From Bradyrhizobium sp. B124 (GTDB taxonomy: Bacteria > Pseudomonadota > Alphaproteobacteria > Rhizobiales > Xanthobacteraceae): a DNA stretch of 64,000 bases. The stretch covers positions 1,426,001-1,490,000 of the forward strand of contig NZ_CP152413.1 in NCBI RefSeq assembly GCF_038967635.1. The letters are read 5' to 3'. The translations under genes and the position numbers were made by a program. Under the pieces are notes generated by a model. It worked only from the letters and a program-made list of their open reading frames with translations, made no database searches and was not told the origin of the DNA. Shown here piece by piece: positions 58,305 to 64,000 of this stretch (position 1 is its first letter; every line of letters starts with the position of its first letter).

Positions 58305-59678
58305 CTAGGTGCCGAAGATCGTATCGATCAGCAGCTTCACGTTCAGGATCACGATCAGGCCGGCGACGATCCATGCTGCCACCGCAACGGGGCGCGAAAT
58401 CGCGAACGCGCCCATCTTGCGCTTGTCGGACACGAAGCGCACCAGCGGGATCACCGCGAACGGCAGCTGCATCGACAGCACGACCTGGCTGAACACCAAA
58501 AGCTGCGCGGTGCCGCTCTCGCCATAGAGCGCCGCCACCACGATGACCGGCACGATCGCGATGCCGCGGGTCACCAGCCGCTGCAGCCAGTCGGGCAGCT
58601 TGAGGTCGAGAAAGCCCTGCATCACGATCTGGCCGGCGAGCGTTGCAGTCACCGTCGAGTTCAGGCCAGAGGCGAGCAGCGCCACGGCAAACAGCGTCGA
58701 GGCGATGCCGAGGCCGAGCAGCGGCGACAGCAGCTCGAAAGCCTGGTCGATCTCGGCGACATCAGAGTGGCCGCTCTTGTGGAAGGTCGCGGCCGCCAGC
58801 ACCAGGATCGCGGCGTTGACGAACAGTGCCAGCATCAGCGCGATGGTGGAGTCGGTGGTCGCCCATTTGATCGCGTCGCGCCGGCCCTCCTCGGTGCGCG
58901 GATAGGCCCGGGTCTGCACGATCGAGGAGTGCAGATAGAGGTTATGCGGCATCACGGTGGCGCCGATGATGCCGATCGCGATGTAGAGCATCTCCGGATT
59001 GGTGACGATCTCGCGCGACGGCATGAAGCCGCCGATCACGCCGGCAATCGGCGGCGCGGCAGCGGCGATCTGGACCACGAAGCAGACCGCGATGACGATC
59101 AGGAGCGCGATCACGAAGGCCTCGAGGAAACGGAAGCCGCGGTTCATCAGGAGCAGCAGCAGGAACGCATCGAGCGCCGCAAGCAGCGCGCCGCCGATCA
59201 GGGGAATGCCGAACAGCAGCTTGAGTGCGATCGCAGTGCCGATCACCTCGGCGAGGTCGCAGGCGATGATCGCGGCTTCGCAGGCGAGCCACAGCAGCAA
59301 ATTCACCGGCCGCGAATAGGTCGCGCGGCAGGCCTGTGCCAGGTCGCGGTCGGTCGCGATGCCGAGCCGGGCCGAAAGCGCCTGCAGCAGGATCGCCATC
59401 AGGTTGGAGAGCAAGATGACCGACAGCAGCGTGTAGCCAAACTTCGATCCGCCCGCGAGGTCGGTCGCCCAATTGCCGGGGTCCATATAGCCGACCGAGA
59501 CCAGGTAGCCCGGCCCGGCGAAAGCCAACAGCCGCCGCCACCACACGCCCGTGCTCGGCACCGCAACGGTCGCGTTCACCTCGGGCAGGCTGCGCGCATG
59601 GCCGGCATCGCCCCGCCAGCCATCTGGCACGGCGTCAGGAGCAGAAACGGAAGACATTTCAGGAGTCCGAGCGTCCAT
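58305..59678 (-). CDS. mntH: Nramp manganese transporter MntH
   Basis: Proton-coupled Mn(II) importer. 457 residues, 11 spans. The metal-binding DPGN motif stands in [20 protein letters not shown] and the M-P-H motif in [40 protein letters not shown] is a conserved span. The first 45 residues are a non-conserved polar extension. A Mur-like box lies directly upstream. In Bradyrhizobium MntH is the main manganese importer. Confidence 0.94.
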
Positions 59679-59707
59679 TCGAGAAGCATGACCGATCCCT
59701 CCCGTTA

Positions 59708-59730
59708 TTGCAACTCATTTGCAACTGCAT
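59708..59730 (-). promoter_or_regulatory. Mur/Fur-type box upstream of mntH
   Basis: On the minus strand ATGCAGTTGCAAATGAGTTG CAA contains two TTGCAA units spaced as in known rhizobial Mur boxes (TGCAA repeats). It starts 30 bases upstream of the mntH start codon. Mn-dependent repression by Mur is the expected effect. Confidence 0.6.
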
Positions 59731-59765
59731 CTAGGCTCACGAAAATGATACCGACTGCCTGTCTT

Positions 59766-59790
59766 GTAAAGTACTCAGGAAGTGCTTTAC
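59766..59790. promoter_or_regulatory. 25-bp palindrome upstream of the PspA fusion gene
   Basis: GTAAAGTACT (59766-59775) and AGTGCTTTAC (59781-59790) are inverted with nine of ten matches around CAGGA. It ends nine bases before the ATG at 59800, where a repressor would block initiation. No -10 box is clear between them. Confidence 0.6.
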
Positions 59791-59799
59791 GTTAGACGC

Positions 59800-60930
59800 A
59801 TGATCAAGCTATCCGTCGAGACGCCAACCGCAACGCTGCGTTACGCCCTCGCCCCCTACCCGTCGGGCATCGAGGCGATCGAGGCGACCTTTGCGGCCTA
59901 CGACCGGATGATGGCGATCCTCGCCGAGGTCGCCCCCGTCGGCGCCAACCTCGTCTCGCTGCACGCCCAGGCCTACGAGAAGATCCGCAAGGAAACCGGC
60001 CTGCCCGCACGGCTGGTGACGCTCGGCCTGCGCGACCGCGCCAACTACATCGCAGGCGCCGCCGTCCGCCGGATACCGCTCGACGACAAGTTGTTTGCGA
60101 TCAAGGGGCCAACTTCACTGACCATTAGCACTGTCAGCGGACGCGTCTTGGTGCCGTTCGACGTGCCGGGATATGTCTCGGGCTGGGAAAGCCCCTTCCC
60201 GGCGCATTTGATCTCGGATGGACGCGGCTACGAAATCCACATCGCCGTCAAATCGAAATCAGCACAACCGGAGGAGAAGACCATGCTTCACGAAGGCATC
60301 CTTGCGCGCATGGGCCGGCTTCTTGCCGCCATCGCCAGCCAGACCATCGACAACGTCGAGAGCAACAACAAGGTCGCGCTGGTCAAGCAGGCGATCCGCG
60401 AGATCGACGCGGGCGCCGACGAAGCGCGCTATGCGCTCGGCAAGTCGCGCGCCGAGGAATTCCGTTTGAAGAGGCGCCGCGAAGAACTGGATACCGAGAC
60501 GACTGCTCTGAACGAGAAGATCCGTCTCGCACTTGCGGAAAGTCGCGAGGATCTCGCGCGCGCCGGCGTCGCACGGCAAATTGACCTGGAGTCGCAGGTG
60601 ATCGCGCTGGAACGCGCGATGGATTTCATCGAACTCGAGATCGACGAGCAGACCAAGGCGCTGCAAGCCATGCTCGGCGCGCGCCGCGAGGCAGAGGCGC
60701 GATTGGCCGATCTCGAACAAAGTCTGATCCGCGAGGCCAAGGACGAAACCAGCCGGAGCCCATCGACGACCAATACATTGAGTGCCGAACGCGCCATGGC
60801 GGCGATCGCCCGGGTTACCGGTGTCCCCGCTGCAAGCGTGCTCGGCGACAAGGAGCTCGACGAACTCGATCGCCTGCACCGCGAAAAGGAAATCGCGGCG
60901 CGGCTTGAAAGGATCAAGTCAGAAAAATGA
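59800..60930 (+). CDS. TnpB N-terminal-like domain fused to a PspA/IM30 protein
   Basis: 376 residues from ATG 59800. Residues 1-155 match the N-terminal part of IS605 OrfB/TnpB: LVSLHAQAYEKIRKETGLPA, RLVTLGLRDRANYIAG, RIPLDDKLFAIKGPTSLTIS TVSGRVLVPF, DGRGYEIHIAV. No DED nuclease or zinc finger follows. Residues 162-376 are a full PspA/IM30: MLHEGILARMGRLLAAIASQ, SNNKVALVKQAIREIDAGAD, then long charged helices. ATG 60283 (Met162) has its own strong site GGAGGAGAAG, so a PspA-only product is likely too. The gene overlaps yqiJ (ATGA). Confidence 0.75.
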   Translation: MIKLSVETPTATLRYALAPYPSGIEAIEATFAAYDRMMAILAEVAPVGANLVSLHAQAYEKIRKETGLPARLVTLGLRDRANYIAGAAVRRIPLDDKLFAIKGPTSLTISTVSGRVLVPFDVPGYVSGWESPFPAHLISDGRGYEIHIAVKSKSAQPEEKTMLHEGILARMGRLLAAIASQTIDNVESNNKVALVKQAIREIDAGADEARYALGKSRAEEFRLKRRREELDTETTALNEKIRLALAESREDLARAGVARQIDLESQVIALERAMDFIELEIDEQTKALQAMLGARREAEARLADLEQSLIREAKDETSRSPSTTNTLSAERAMAAIARVTGVPAASVLGDKELDELDRLHREKEIAARLERIKSEK

Positions 60931-61589
60931 GTGCAGTTGGCGACATTCTGCTCGCCCCGGACGTGCGGCCCTTCGCGGTCGCGGCTGCGATCATGGTGGC
61001 ACTTGGCGGTATCGAGCTGCTGACCACCATGGTCGGACTTTCGATCAGCGAACTCGTCGGTAAGGATTTCGCGGTCGAGGCCGAGAGCCACAATGCTCTC
61101 AGTGGCCTGTTTCTCTGGATCAACGCCGGGCGGCTTCCCCTCCTGATCCTGATCATCCTGATACTTGGCATATTCTCGATCGGAGGCTTCCTGCTTCAGG
61201 GACTGGCGCATGCCGCAGGCACCGCCATTCCGGTCTCGATTGCCGCGGTGATTGCTGCCGCAGGCAGCATCCCCGTGATCAGAAATACGAGCCGCGGCCT
61301 CGCCCGCATCATTCCGCGCGACGAGAGCTATGCGGTCAACGACAGCGACTTTGTCGGCAAGGTCGCAACCGTGTCGGTCGGCCCGCTCGATCAGGGCCTG
61401 CCCGGCAGGGTCCGTCTCAAGGATGTCTTCGGCAACTGGCACACCGTGTCGGCGCGGGCCAGCGCGGAGTCCGAGGCATTGCCGGTCGGCGCCAGCGTGT
61501 TGCTGGTCGACCGCGATACCAAAGGATTCATTGCGATCGCCGCTCCTTCCGACCTCATTGAACAACAACGATCTTCCAACAGGGCATAA
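60927..61589 (+). CDS. yqiJ: YqiJ-like (NfeD-type) membrane protein
   Basis: 220 residues. Two long membrane regions (FAVAAAIMVALGGIELLTTM and RLPLLILIILILGIFSIGGF, also IPVSIAAVIAAAGSIPVI) are followed by a soluble OB-fold: DFVGKVATVSVGPLDQGLPG RVRLKDVFGNWHTVSARA and ASVLLVDRDTKGFIAIAAP. YqiJ-type NfeD proteins regularly pair with flotillins. The gene overlaps the PspA fusion by ATGA and lies 3 bases upstream of the flotillin gene. Confidence 0.88.
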   Translation: MSAVGDILLAPDVRPFAVAAAIMVALGGIELLTTMVGLSISELVGKDFAVEAESHNALSGLFLWINAGRLPLLILIILILGIFSIGGFLLQGLAHAAGTAIPVSIAAVIAAAGSIPVIRNTSRGLARIIPRDESYAVNDSDFVGKVATVSVGPLDQGLPGRVRLKDVFGNWHTVSARASAESEALPVGASVLLVDRDTKGFIAIAAPSDLIEQQRSSNRA

Positions 61590-61592
61590 CAT

Positions 61593-63344
61593 ATGTGGGA
61601 ACTTGCTGTACCCGTCGCCATTGGCGTCCTCGCGATCCTCGTCATTGGCCTGCTTTTCGCAAAACTCTACAAGCGCTCGACACGCGATGAGGCCTATGTG
61701 CGCACCGGCCTCGGCGGCCAGAAGGTCGTGCTCGACGGCGGCTCGCTCGTGCTGCCGATCTTCCACTCCACCGCCGCGGTGAACCTGAAGACCCTGCGGC
61801 TCGAGGTCGCGCGCGGCGGCCCGGATTCATTGATCACCAAGGACCGCATGCGCGTCGATATCGGCGCCGAGTTCTATCTGCGCGTCAAACCCGACTCTTC
61901 GTCGATCGCGCTGGCCGCGCAGACGCTCGGCAACCGCACCAATGACGCGGCCGAGCTCCGCGAACTGGTCGAAGCCAAGTTCGTCGACGGCCTGCGCTCG
62001 GTCGCCGCGACCATGAACCTTGAGGAATTGCAGGAGCAGCGCGCGACCTTCGTCAAGGCGGTGCAGGACGCGGTCGGCGCCGACATCCAGAACAACGGCC
62101 TCGAGCTTGAATCGGTGTCGCTGACCCGGCTCGACCAGAGCGACATCAAGCACTTCAATCCGAGCAATTTCTTCGACGCACACGGCCTCACCACCCTGAC
62201 CAAGATCACCAAGGAGCGCGAACAGGAGCGCAACCAGATCGTCCGCACCACCGAGGTCAATATCGCCCAGCAGGATCTGGTGGCGCGGCAGACCACGCTG
62301 ACGATCGAGAGCACCAAGCGCGAGGCCGAGCTCGCCCAGCAGCGCGACATCGCCAACAAGACCGCCGCGATGCGCGCCCAGACCGCGCAGGTCGAGCAGA
62401 CCGCGTTGCAGAACGAAGCCGAGTACCGCATTCAGCAGGAGCTTGCGGTCGCCAACAAGCAGACCGAGGCCAACCAGGCCCGCGACACCCGCAAGATCGA
62501 GGCCGATCTCGCCGTCAAGCGCCGCACCACCGAAACCGACCGCGAGCTCCAGATCGTGGCGCAGGAGGCTGCGATCGCGGTCGCCACCAAGAGCAAGGAG
62601 CAATCGGAAGCCCAGACCATCGCCGAGACCGCACGCGCACTCGCGATCGCAGCCGAGGAAAAGGTCACCACCGCCCGCGCCACCGAGGTCGCCGAGCGCG
62701 ACAAGATCATCAACGTGATCGCCGCGCGCAAGGTCGCCGAGACCAATGCGATGCCGATCACGGTGATGGCGGAGGCCGAAAAGCAGGCTGCAGCCAACAA
62801 GGCCGAGGCCACCAACGTGCTGGCGAAAGCCGACGCCAACGCAGCCACCACCCGCGCCGCCGGCGTCAAGGCGCTCGGCCAGGCTGAAGCGGAAGTCGCG
62901 ACGTTGAAGGCCGAGGCGCGCAACAAGCTGAGCGCCGACATGATTGCCTACGATCTCAACCTCGCGCGGATCAACGTGATCCCGAGCGCGCTCGCCGAGG
63001 CGGTGAAGCCGATCGAGAAGATCTCCGACATCCGGATCTTCGACACCGGCAGCATGCTGGGCCGCGGCGGCACCAACGGCCATGCCAACGGCAATGGCGG
63101 TCTCGGGCTCGGCGACGGCCTCGCCGCGCAGTTGCTGTCGGTCTCGGCGTTCAAGCCGATGATCGACAAGATCCTCTCGGAGGCAGGCTTCCCGGCCGGC
63201 CCCGATGCGCTCACCAGCCTGACCAGCGCGCTGGCGCAGCGCAAGACGGAGGTTACTCCGGCGCCTGCGGTCAGCGACGACAGCCGGCCCGCGACGTTGG
63301 TCGGCACCATCACCGGTCAGCTCGCTCCGGGGCCCACACCGTGA
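61593..63344 (+). CDS. yqiK: Flotillin-like protein (YqiK type)
   Basis: 583 residues. An N-terminal membrane span (LAVPVAIGVLAILVIGLLFA) precedes the SPFH domain (AYVRTGLGGQKVVLDGGSLV LPIFHSTAAVNLKTLRLEVA), a long Glu/Ala-rich coiled coil (residues about 200-460) and a C-terminal Gly/Asn-rich tail. Flotillins organise ordered membrane microdomains. With PspA and YqiJ this makes a membrane-protection operon. A terminator follows. Confidence 0.92.
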   Translation: MWELAVPVAIGVLAILVIGLLFAKLYKRSTRDEAYVRTGLGGQKVVLDGGSLVLPIFHSTAAVNLKTLRLEVARGGPDSLITKDRMRVDIGAEFYLRVKPDSSSIALAAQTLGNRTNDAAELRELVEAKFVDGLRSVAATMNLEELQEQRATFVKAVQDAVGADIQNNGLELESVSLTRLDQSDIKHFNPSNFFDAHGLTTLTKITKEREQERNQIVRTTEVNIAQQDLVARQTTLTIESTKREAELAQQRDIANKTAAMRAQTAQVEQTALQNEAEYRIQQELAVANKQTEANQARDTRKIEADLAVKRRTTETDRELQIVAQEAAIAVATKSKEQSEAQTIAETARALAIAAEEKVTTARATEVAERDKIINVIAARKVAETNAMPITVMAEAEKQAAANKAEATNVLAKADANAATTRAAGVKALGQAEAEVATLKAEARNKLSADMIAYDLNLARINVIPSALAEAVKPIEKISDIRIFDTGSMLGRGGTNGHANGNGGLGLGDGLAAQLLSVSAFKPMIDKILSEAGFPAGPDALTSLTSALAQRKTEVTPAPAVSDDSRPATLVGTITGQLAPGPTP

Positions 63345-63371
63345 TGGTGTGACCGCGCTCTGCTATCAGTG

Positions 63372-63406
63372 ACAAGGCCCGCCTCTCACGGCGGGCCTTG
63401 TTTTTG
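63372..63406 (+). terminator. Terminator of the pspA-yqiJ-yqiK operon
   Basis: AAGGCCCGCC and GGCGGGCCTT form a 10-bp stem around TCTCAC; GTTTTT follows. It lies 30 bases after the flotillin stop codon. Confidence 0.9.
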
Positions 63407-63486
63407 GCGTTGTCGGGAAACGGGTGGGATCGGGCGTCTTCCAATCACACACTATGGCCAGATCGAATTTCCCTGAGGATTCTGCC

Positions 63487-64000
63487 ATGTCCGCCGATAC
63501 GCCGCGCCTGCCCGCCACCTTCAATCGCCTGGCCTGGTCCAACCTCGCCGCGCAATCGGCCGAGCAGATTGCGCTTGCCGCCGCCCCCATCGTCGCCGTG
63601 CTGGTGCTCGGCGTCGGCGAAGGCCAGACCGGCCTGTTGCAGACCGCACTGACGCTGCCGTTCATCCTGTTTGCAATTCCCGCCGGCCTGCTGGCCGACC
63701 GCGTGTCGCGGCGCTGGGTGATGGCGGGCTCCGAGGCACTACGCGCCGCCGCACTTGCCGCGATCCTGCTGTTGCTGTGGTTCGGCGCGATGACCTTGCC
63801 GATGCTCGCCTTGCTCGGCTTCATCGCGGTCTGCGGCACGGTTGCATACAGCGTCGCAGCTCCTGCGCTGGTCCCGTCGCTCGTGACCTCGCAGCAGTTG
63901 CCGGCCGCGAATGCCCGTATCGAACTTGCGCGCACCGTCGCATTTGCCAGCGGACCCGCGCTCGGCGGCGTGCTGGTCGGCTGGGTCGGCGCTGCGCCCG
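63487..64000 (+). CDS. MFS transporter, 3' part outside window
   Basis: The first 171 residues are present: MSADTPRLPATFNRLAWSNL, then AAQSAEQIALAAAPIVAVLV LGVGEGQTGLLQTAL and FILFAIPAGLLADRVSRRWV MAGSEALRA, the MFS loop-2 motif G-x-L-A-D-R-x-x-R-R. At least four spans are visible. The type resembles DHA3/enterobactin-exporter-like carriers. Substrate unknown. Confidence 0.88.
   Translation, partial: MSADTPRLPATFNRLAWSNLAAQSAEQIALAAAPIVAVLVLGVGEGQTGLLQTALTLPFILFAIPAGLLADRVSRRWVMAGSEALRAAALAAILLLLWFGAMTLPMLALLGFIAVCGTVAYSVAAPALVPSLVTSQQLPAANARIELARTVAFASGPALGGVLVGWVGAAP

Follow-up and report, generated by a model that had tools for sequence, protein, structure and literature searches.

A stretch of 64,000 nt from Bradyrhizobium sp. 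B124 (NZ_CP152413.1, positions 1,426,001 to 1,490,000; hereafter the window) carries a gene of 376 codons in which a transposon-derived domain is fused to the membrane-stress protein PspA. Residues 1-155 descend from the WED/REC lobe of TnpB; the nuclease lobe is gone and PspA stands in its place. A palindrome precedes the gene, and the palindrome and helix 70-82 of the lobe vary together. On sequence grounds the fusion is probably an autoregulatory membrane-stress protein, a guide-free repressor of its own operon. There is a slightly better than even chance that it represents a new class of transcription factor, in which a lobe that reads the transposon-associated motif (TAM) would read the palindrome without guide RNA or nuclease and, fused to an ESCRT-III-like protein, would combine stress sensing, membrane repair and repression in a single two-start chain. 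Chance as the origin of these features is excluded by their conservation over 94 loci.

The N-terminal residues had been labelled IS605 OrfB/TnpB in the first-pass annotation, which called for profile and structure checks. Structure comparison bears out a WED/REC fold of TnpB type, and profile-profile comparison, which passed its shuffle control, supports homology to TnpB end to end, up to the start of RuvC. A hidden Markov model (HMM) of the lobe matched a complete proteobacterial TnpB of 374 residues (L173; L numbers denote loci), which among the genomes covered by the search is the TnpB nearest to the fused lobe. The TnpBs resembling the lobe are from Allomeiothermus, haloarchaea and one proteobacterium, a group other than canonical IS605. 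The genome that holds L173 also carries a TnpB of the PF12323 type (L107). The relation to TnpB is therefore upheld by fold, profiles and HMM match, but not the canonical IS605 label.

Certain results count against the assignment to TnpB. Alignment of the lobe with 12 canonical IS605-type (PF12323) TnpBs was not significant (probability 2.5, score 20.9, shuffles up to 23.5), and Foldseek gave no match to the lobe below E 0.001 (best 1.4e-3). The profile-profile test is not fully independent, because its closest TnpB, L096, came from a similarity search; the match to L173, unlike L096, is independent evidence. Pfam alone shows no relation: neither Pfam nor NCBIfam gave a match above cut-off on the N-terminal 161 residues, and PF12323 touched 2 of 34 lobe members (best E 0.23). 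Searches of PDB sequences gave only a chance match for a single lobe sequence and none for the lobe profile. Among plasmids and phages (E up to 10) the lobe found 11 plasmid fusions and then weak matches, including one annotated TnpB (Allomeiothermus, E 3). Matches in Thermobacillus, Chloroflexota and a Vibrio phage were judged from their neighbourhoods to be chance, and L174-L179 (E 0.001-0.1) were left out of the relatives. A convergent fold or chance likeness to TnpB would fit a domain that lacks a Pfam family and an HMM that reaches just 36 of 155 TnpB-like proteins at E 0.01; however, the same HMM matched none of the 155 reversed sequences, and the shuffle control, L173 and the fold comparison also speak against convergence, which we regard as extremely improbable.

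No RuvC family was found in the fusion protein by Pfam, the place of RuvC and TNB being taken by PspA. A complete PspA in frame, as had been claimed, is confirmed: residues 166-299 match PspA_IM30 (PF04012; E 2.2e-10; 40.9 bits against a cut-off of 33.9), long helices are predicted at 188-246 and 250-315 in the structure model, and lobe and PspA lie in one open frame at all 73 complete, intact loci. The fusion occurs in rhizobia and some of their relatives, and a contig scan of genomes gave 75 loci in Bradyrhizobium and outside it. The set of 94 loci consists of the window, 73 of these 75, 17 from a genome search and 3 plasmid loci. It omits L035, which is truncated where its contig stops, and L076 of Bradyrhizobium ivorense CI-1B, where the gene has decayed until nothing but residues 89-125 and 314-376 can be recognised, close together. 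In a few cases one genome contributes from two collections; the set holds 47 distinct 26-nt palindrome sequences. The upstream part, on whose conservation the fusion was said to depend, is kept about as well as PspA (for example 63% vs 51% to L036; 57% vs 53% to L045), and third codon positions were the most variable in 9 of 9 comparisons.

When evenly drawn genomes were searched by profile, fusions turned up in 4 of 289 from the class and in 15 of 297 from the order. The distribution is thus patchy, with some congeneric genomes lacking the fusion. In the order search 16 genomes matched, one of them without a fusion (L095, E 8e-4, a helicase-like open reading frame (ORF) by eye, set aside as a lobe relative). 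Among 240 genomes of the class, all three relatives of the PspA half above 40% identity, window included, are fusions, and free PspAs begin at 36% identity.

The palindrome (GTAAAGTACT-CAGGA-AGTGCTTTAC, arms pairing at 9 of 10 positions) belongs to the fusion operon. Its position just before the long start had been noted earlier; it is real and conserved, and far from being an isolated curiosity it goes with the operon at every one of the 94 loci and co-varies with the lobe. The dyad AAAGYAC-N7-GTRCTTT or a symmetric variant of it keeps all seven arm pairs at 72 loci, six at 21 and five at L090. With at most one mismatch this pattern has a single match in the 9.17-Mb genome of the window, against three for the pattern read backward. 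In 28 further genomes 7 of 7 exact matches sit at the fusion. At one mismatch, matches lie there in 12 of the 17 genomes that have the fusion, the other five having symmetric variants or two mismatches; 3 of the 11 genomes that lack it also have such matches, as has the backward control. The palindrome accompanies the operon onto plasmids (L100, L101, L137, L199-L201). The proposed operator is, by these counts, specific to its own operon.

Palindromes with AAAGGA occur at three loci (L078, L079 and L088), all with Q71 and V74. Column 74 is the sole one of 148 lobe columns with a residue common to these three loci and absent from the other 91, and column 71, whose residue L080 has as well, is second to it in tracking AAAGGA. 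Among the 90 loci with AAAG[CT]A, T74 is present in all and R71 in 89. L094, whose palindrome has AAAACAC, is the only locus with T55. Three loci added later agree with this co-variation. In a tree of the PspA half, L078 and L079 group with L080 (100/99) and L088 stands apart (93/74); the AAAGGA loci need two changes in 200 of 200 bootstrap trees (five labelled rows only). In ISDra2 TnpB, according to the portion of PMC10097598 consulted, the TAM duplex lies in the cleft between WED and REC and is read there by Y52, S56, K76, F77, Q80, T123 and N124. A hand alignment to ISDra2, good to about one residue, places residues 70, 71 and 74 at or beside K76/F77/Q80 and residue 55 near Y52/S56. The operator and the putative DNA-reading residues therefore co-vary, in few lineages.

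In 93 of 94 loci the long ATG follows the palindrome at 10-13 nt. An in-frame GTG is found 18 nt 5' of it in the window, but it is the ATG whose spacing from the palindrome stays constant. A four-base Shine-Dalgarno (SD) match precedes the long start in 2 of 93 loci and the PspA ATG in 94 of 94 (five-base, 87 of 94). For comparison, these genes contain 296 other in-frame ATGs, not mutually independent, of which 21 have a four-base and 6 a five-base match. The internal SD GGAGGAGAAG proposed at the PspA start is thus real and conserved, only its distance needing correction: it ends 3 nt, not five, 5' of ATG 60283, with its GGAGG core 8 nt 5' of that ATG. It is kept despite differing linker residues (PEEK, LKEK, KKEA, QTRE), and in the 24 nt 5' of the PspA start glutamate codons are GAG 142 : GAA 35, against 1315 : 1529 elsewhere. 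Two starts are conserved: the long one, which lacks an SD and is tied to the palindrome, and that of PspA, which is led by an SD. Sequestration of an SD by the palindrome is ruled out, since there is none between palindrome and ATG.

A sigma-70-like promoter spans the palindrome in L045 (TTGAAA-17-TATGTT, 9/12) and L100 (TTGAAA-17-TATATT, 10/12), with 17-nt spacing. Because it ends 6 nt 5' of the ATG, the fusion message may be leaderless. This bears on a further explanation, that the palindrome folds as a hairpin within the 5' leader of the RNA and is bound there by the lobe, which would control translation of its own message. The fixed distance to the ATG would suit such a hairpin, as would the conserved purine loop, the excess of U-G-compatible changes (T-G, 11 distinct sequences, pairs 5 and 7) over C-A (3), and the contacts of the TnpB WED domain with omega RNA described in the consulted part of PMC10097598. 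However, the L045 and L100 hexamers flank the palindrome and place the transcription start at the ATG, so that the palindrome would lie outside the RNA, and the eight other arm mismatches (C-A 3, A-C 2, A-G 2, G-A 1) break RNA pairing. We consider the hairpin quite improbable.

Under autorepression, the palindrome between -35 and -10 would be bound by the lobe, whose counterpart in TnpB grips the TAM duplex. The lobe would need no guide RNA, would act either as a dimer or as part of a PspA oligomer, and would repress the operon. Transcription would begin at or beside ATG 59800, giving the fusion from a leaderless message, and free PspA would be made from the internal SD start. Membrane damage would draw the PspA part to the membrane together with YqiJ and flotillin, the lobe would thereby be taken off the DNA and the operon would be switched on. 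One protein could then be sensor, effector and switch. PutA-type trigger proteins are single proteins that alternate between promoter DNA, as repressors, and the membrane, as effectors, and combine a ribbon-helix-helix (RHH) domain with an enzyme. The fusion resembles them in its proposed shuttling between promoter DNA and membrane, but joins a TnpB lobe to an ESCRT-III-like protein.

Several observations weigh against the lobe as reader of the palindrome. Its net charge is -6 to +5 (22 sequences), against +11 to +24 for the lobes of 12 PF12323-type TnpBs, and with a charge near neutral its affinity for DNA is not obvious. L080 has Q71 yet an AAAGTA site, and R71 lineages accept C or T at the tracked base. 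The co-variation rests on few lineages, the L088 branch being supported at 93/74 and L080, L088 and L094 being long branches, and the two AAAGGA changes may be one gain and one loss. The palindrome spacer is purine-rich and conserved (A at 46 and G at 41 of 47 distinct sequences), which exceeds the needs of a plain dimer operator. A promoter scan of the window gave no match at the palindrome.

The loss of most of TnpB's net positive charge could also mean that the palindrome is the site of a regulator from another locus and that the lobe has another job, such as protein contact, nucleoid or membrane positioning, or blocking of PspA assembly. Relatives with a free PspA do fill the slot with a separate gene: one with an RHH-like N-terminus (by eye) lies 5' of free pspA in 7 of 10 genomes with PspAs 31-36% identical to the PspA half of the fusion over the best stretch, but in 0 of 18 fusion genomes, so that the fusion apparently takes the place of a regulator gene. 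The separate gene lies directly 5' of pspA-yqiJ-flotillin in other alphaproteobacteria (L183-L187, G001, G210); in L184 YqiJ and band-7 genes follow by Pfam, in the other operons by eye. It was not recognised in Pfam, NCBIfam or PDB searches. Inverted repeats occur 5' of 4 of 5 operons with the RHH-like gene (TGTATACA/TGCATACA type in L183, L186 and L187; none in L185) and are of another type than the fusion palindrome. Against an outside regulator, the only clusters found both in and outside Bradyrhizobium are the fusion, yqiJ, flotillin and an antisense shadow ORF (22 largest clusters, 77 loci, 6-kb flanks; counts are lower bounds, since picking the longest non-overlapping ORFs let shadow ORFs hide the fusion at some loci). 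As only operon genes and this ORF are shared across genera among these clusters, the operator travels with the operon, plasmids included; it is operon-specific and varies with helix 70-82. An outside regulator is thus unlikely.

TnpB has been described as an RNA-guided nuclease from which Cas12 and Fanzor arose, and also in the form of RNA-guided repressors. The fused lobe is like TnpB of IS200/IS605/IS607 elements (ISDra2, 8h1j/8exa) in its WED barrel with a helical REC inserted after strand 1; it differs in its fusion to PspA in place of RuvC and the zinc-finger lobe, in being neutral rather than basic, and in lying outside a transposon, in a conserved chromosomal or megaplasmid operon. The lobe is not carried by an IS element, the same operon and palindrome being kept across genera. 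TldRs, in the part of PMC13418256 consulted, are domesticated TnpB derivatives that repress promoters, and by analogy the lobe might still work with a small guide RNA. TldR, however, retains a dead RuvC and guide RNA, as that part relates, whereas the fusion lacks any RuvC or TNB and would read its palindrome directly; in ISDra2 omega RNA is held by WED and RuvC (PMC10097598, in part), and Rfam gave no family above gathering score at 59500-63500, with two sub-threshold matches. A guide RNA is very unlikely here.

The predicted PspA-YqiJ-flotillin operon is borne out by Pfam, YqiJ and flotillin following the fusion directly, and resembles the operons with a CesT/Tir partner in the part of PMC11237479 consulted, which combine PspA, YqiJ/YuaF and band-7/flotillin genes. 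The slot before PspA is occupied by a CesT/Tir-like gene there, by the RHH-like gene in the alphaproteobacteria compared and by the fused TnpB lobe in the group of the window. The portions covered of two surveys of phage shock protein (PSP) systems (PMC11237479, PMC9239133) list CesT/Tir, PspAA and other partners and no TnpB domain, and no description of a TnpB-PspA fusion was found in titles and abstract openings of the open-licence literature. If autorepression by the lobe is correct, a WED/REC-only remnant would show that a TAM-reading module can exist alone as a protein-only DNA reader, residues 55, 71 and 74 and the palindrome bases would form a natural specificity code, and a PSP system would have a membrane-stress effector that carries a DNA switch, without a PspF-like partner.

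Table 1. Features of the fusion locus (window coordinates)
Feature	Position	Strand	Details	Basis
Possible promoter over palindrome	59764..59793	+	TTGTAA, 17-18 nt, TTACGT/TACGTT; weak in the window's species	read from sequence
25-bp palindrome, proposed operator	59766..59790	.	core AAAGTAC-N7-GTGCTTT at 59768-59788	dyad at 94/94 loci
Fusion gene (TnpB WED/REC lobe + PspA)	59800..60930	+	376 aa; ATG to stop	open reading frame, Pfam, comparison of loci
TnpB-type WED/REC lobe	59800..60264	+	residues 1-155	fold, profile-profile comparison, HMM search
Helix 70-82 (ARLVTLGLRDRAN)	60007..60045	+	counterpart of TAM-reading REC helix; R71 and T74 track palindrome	hand alignment to ISDra2
Internal Shine-Dalgarno GGAGGAGAAG	60270..60279	+		SD at 94/94 loci
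PspA part	60283..60930	+	likely separate product from internal ATG	Pfam PF04012 (E 1.1e-10), conserved SD/start
YqiJ/NfeD-like membrane protein	60927..61589	+	overlaps fusion stop (ATGA)	PF21001, PF07290
Flotillin	61593..63344	+		PF15975, PF01145

Elsewhere in the genome of the window no TnpB match was found with PF01385, PF12323 or the A4 profile. A second, more typical PspA is encoded at G000:C1:6810314-6810991 (L163; 84.0 vs 39.3 bits), near a TetR-like ORF (by eye) on the opposite strand. The sub-threshold Rfam matches (Trp_leader, mir-459) lie at 63292-63417, 3' of flotillin, and are probably a terminator-like hairpin or chance. Repeats of TTGCAACTCATTTGCAACTGCAT at 59679-59765, 5' of the divergent mntH, resemble a Mn-responsive Mur site and are kept in most of the Bradyrhizobium loci compared.
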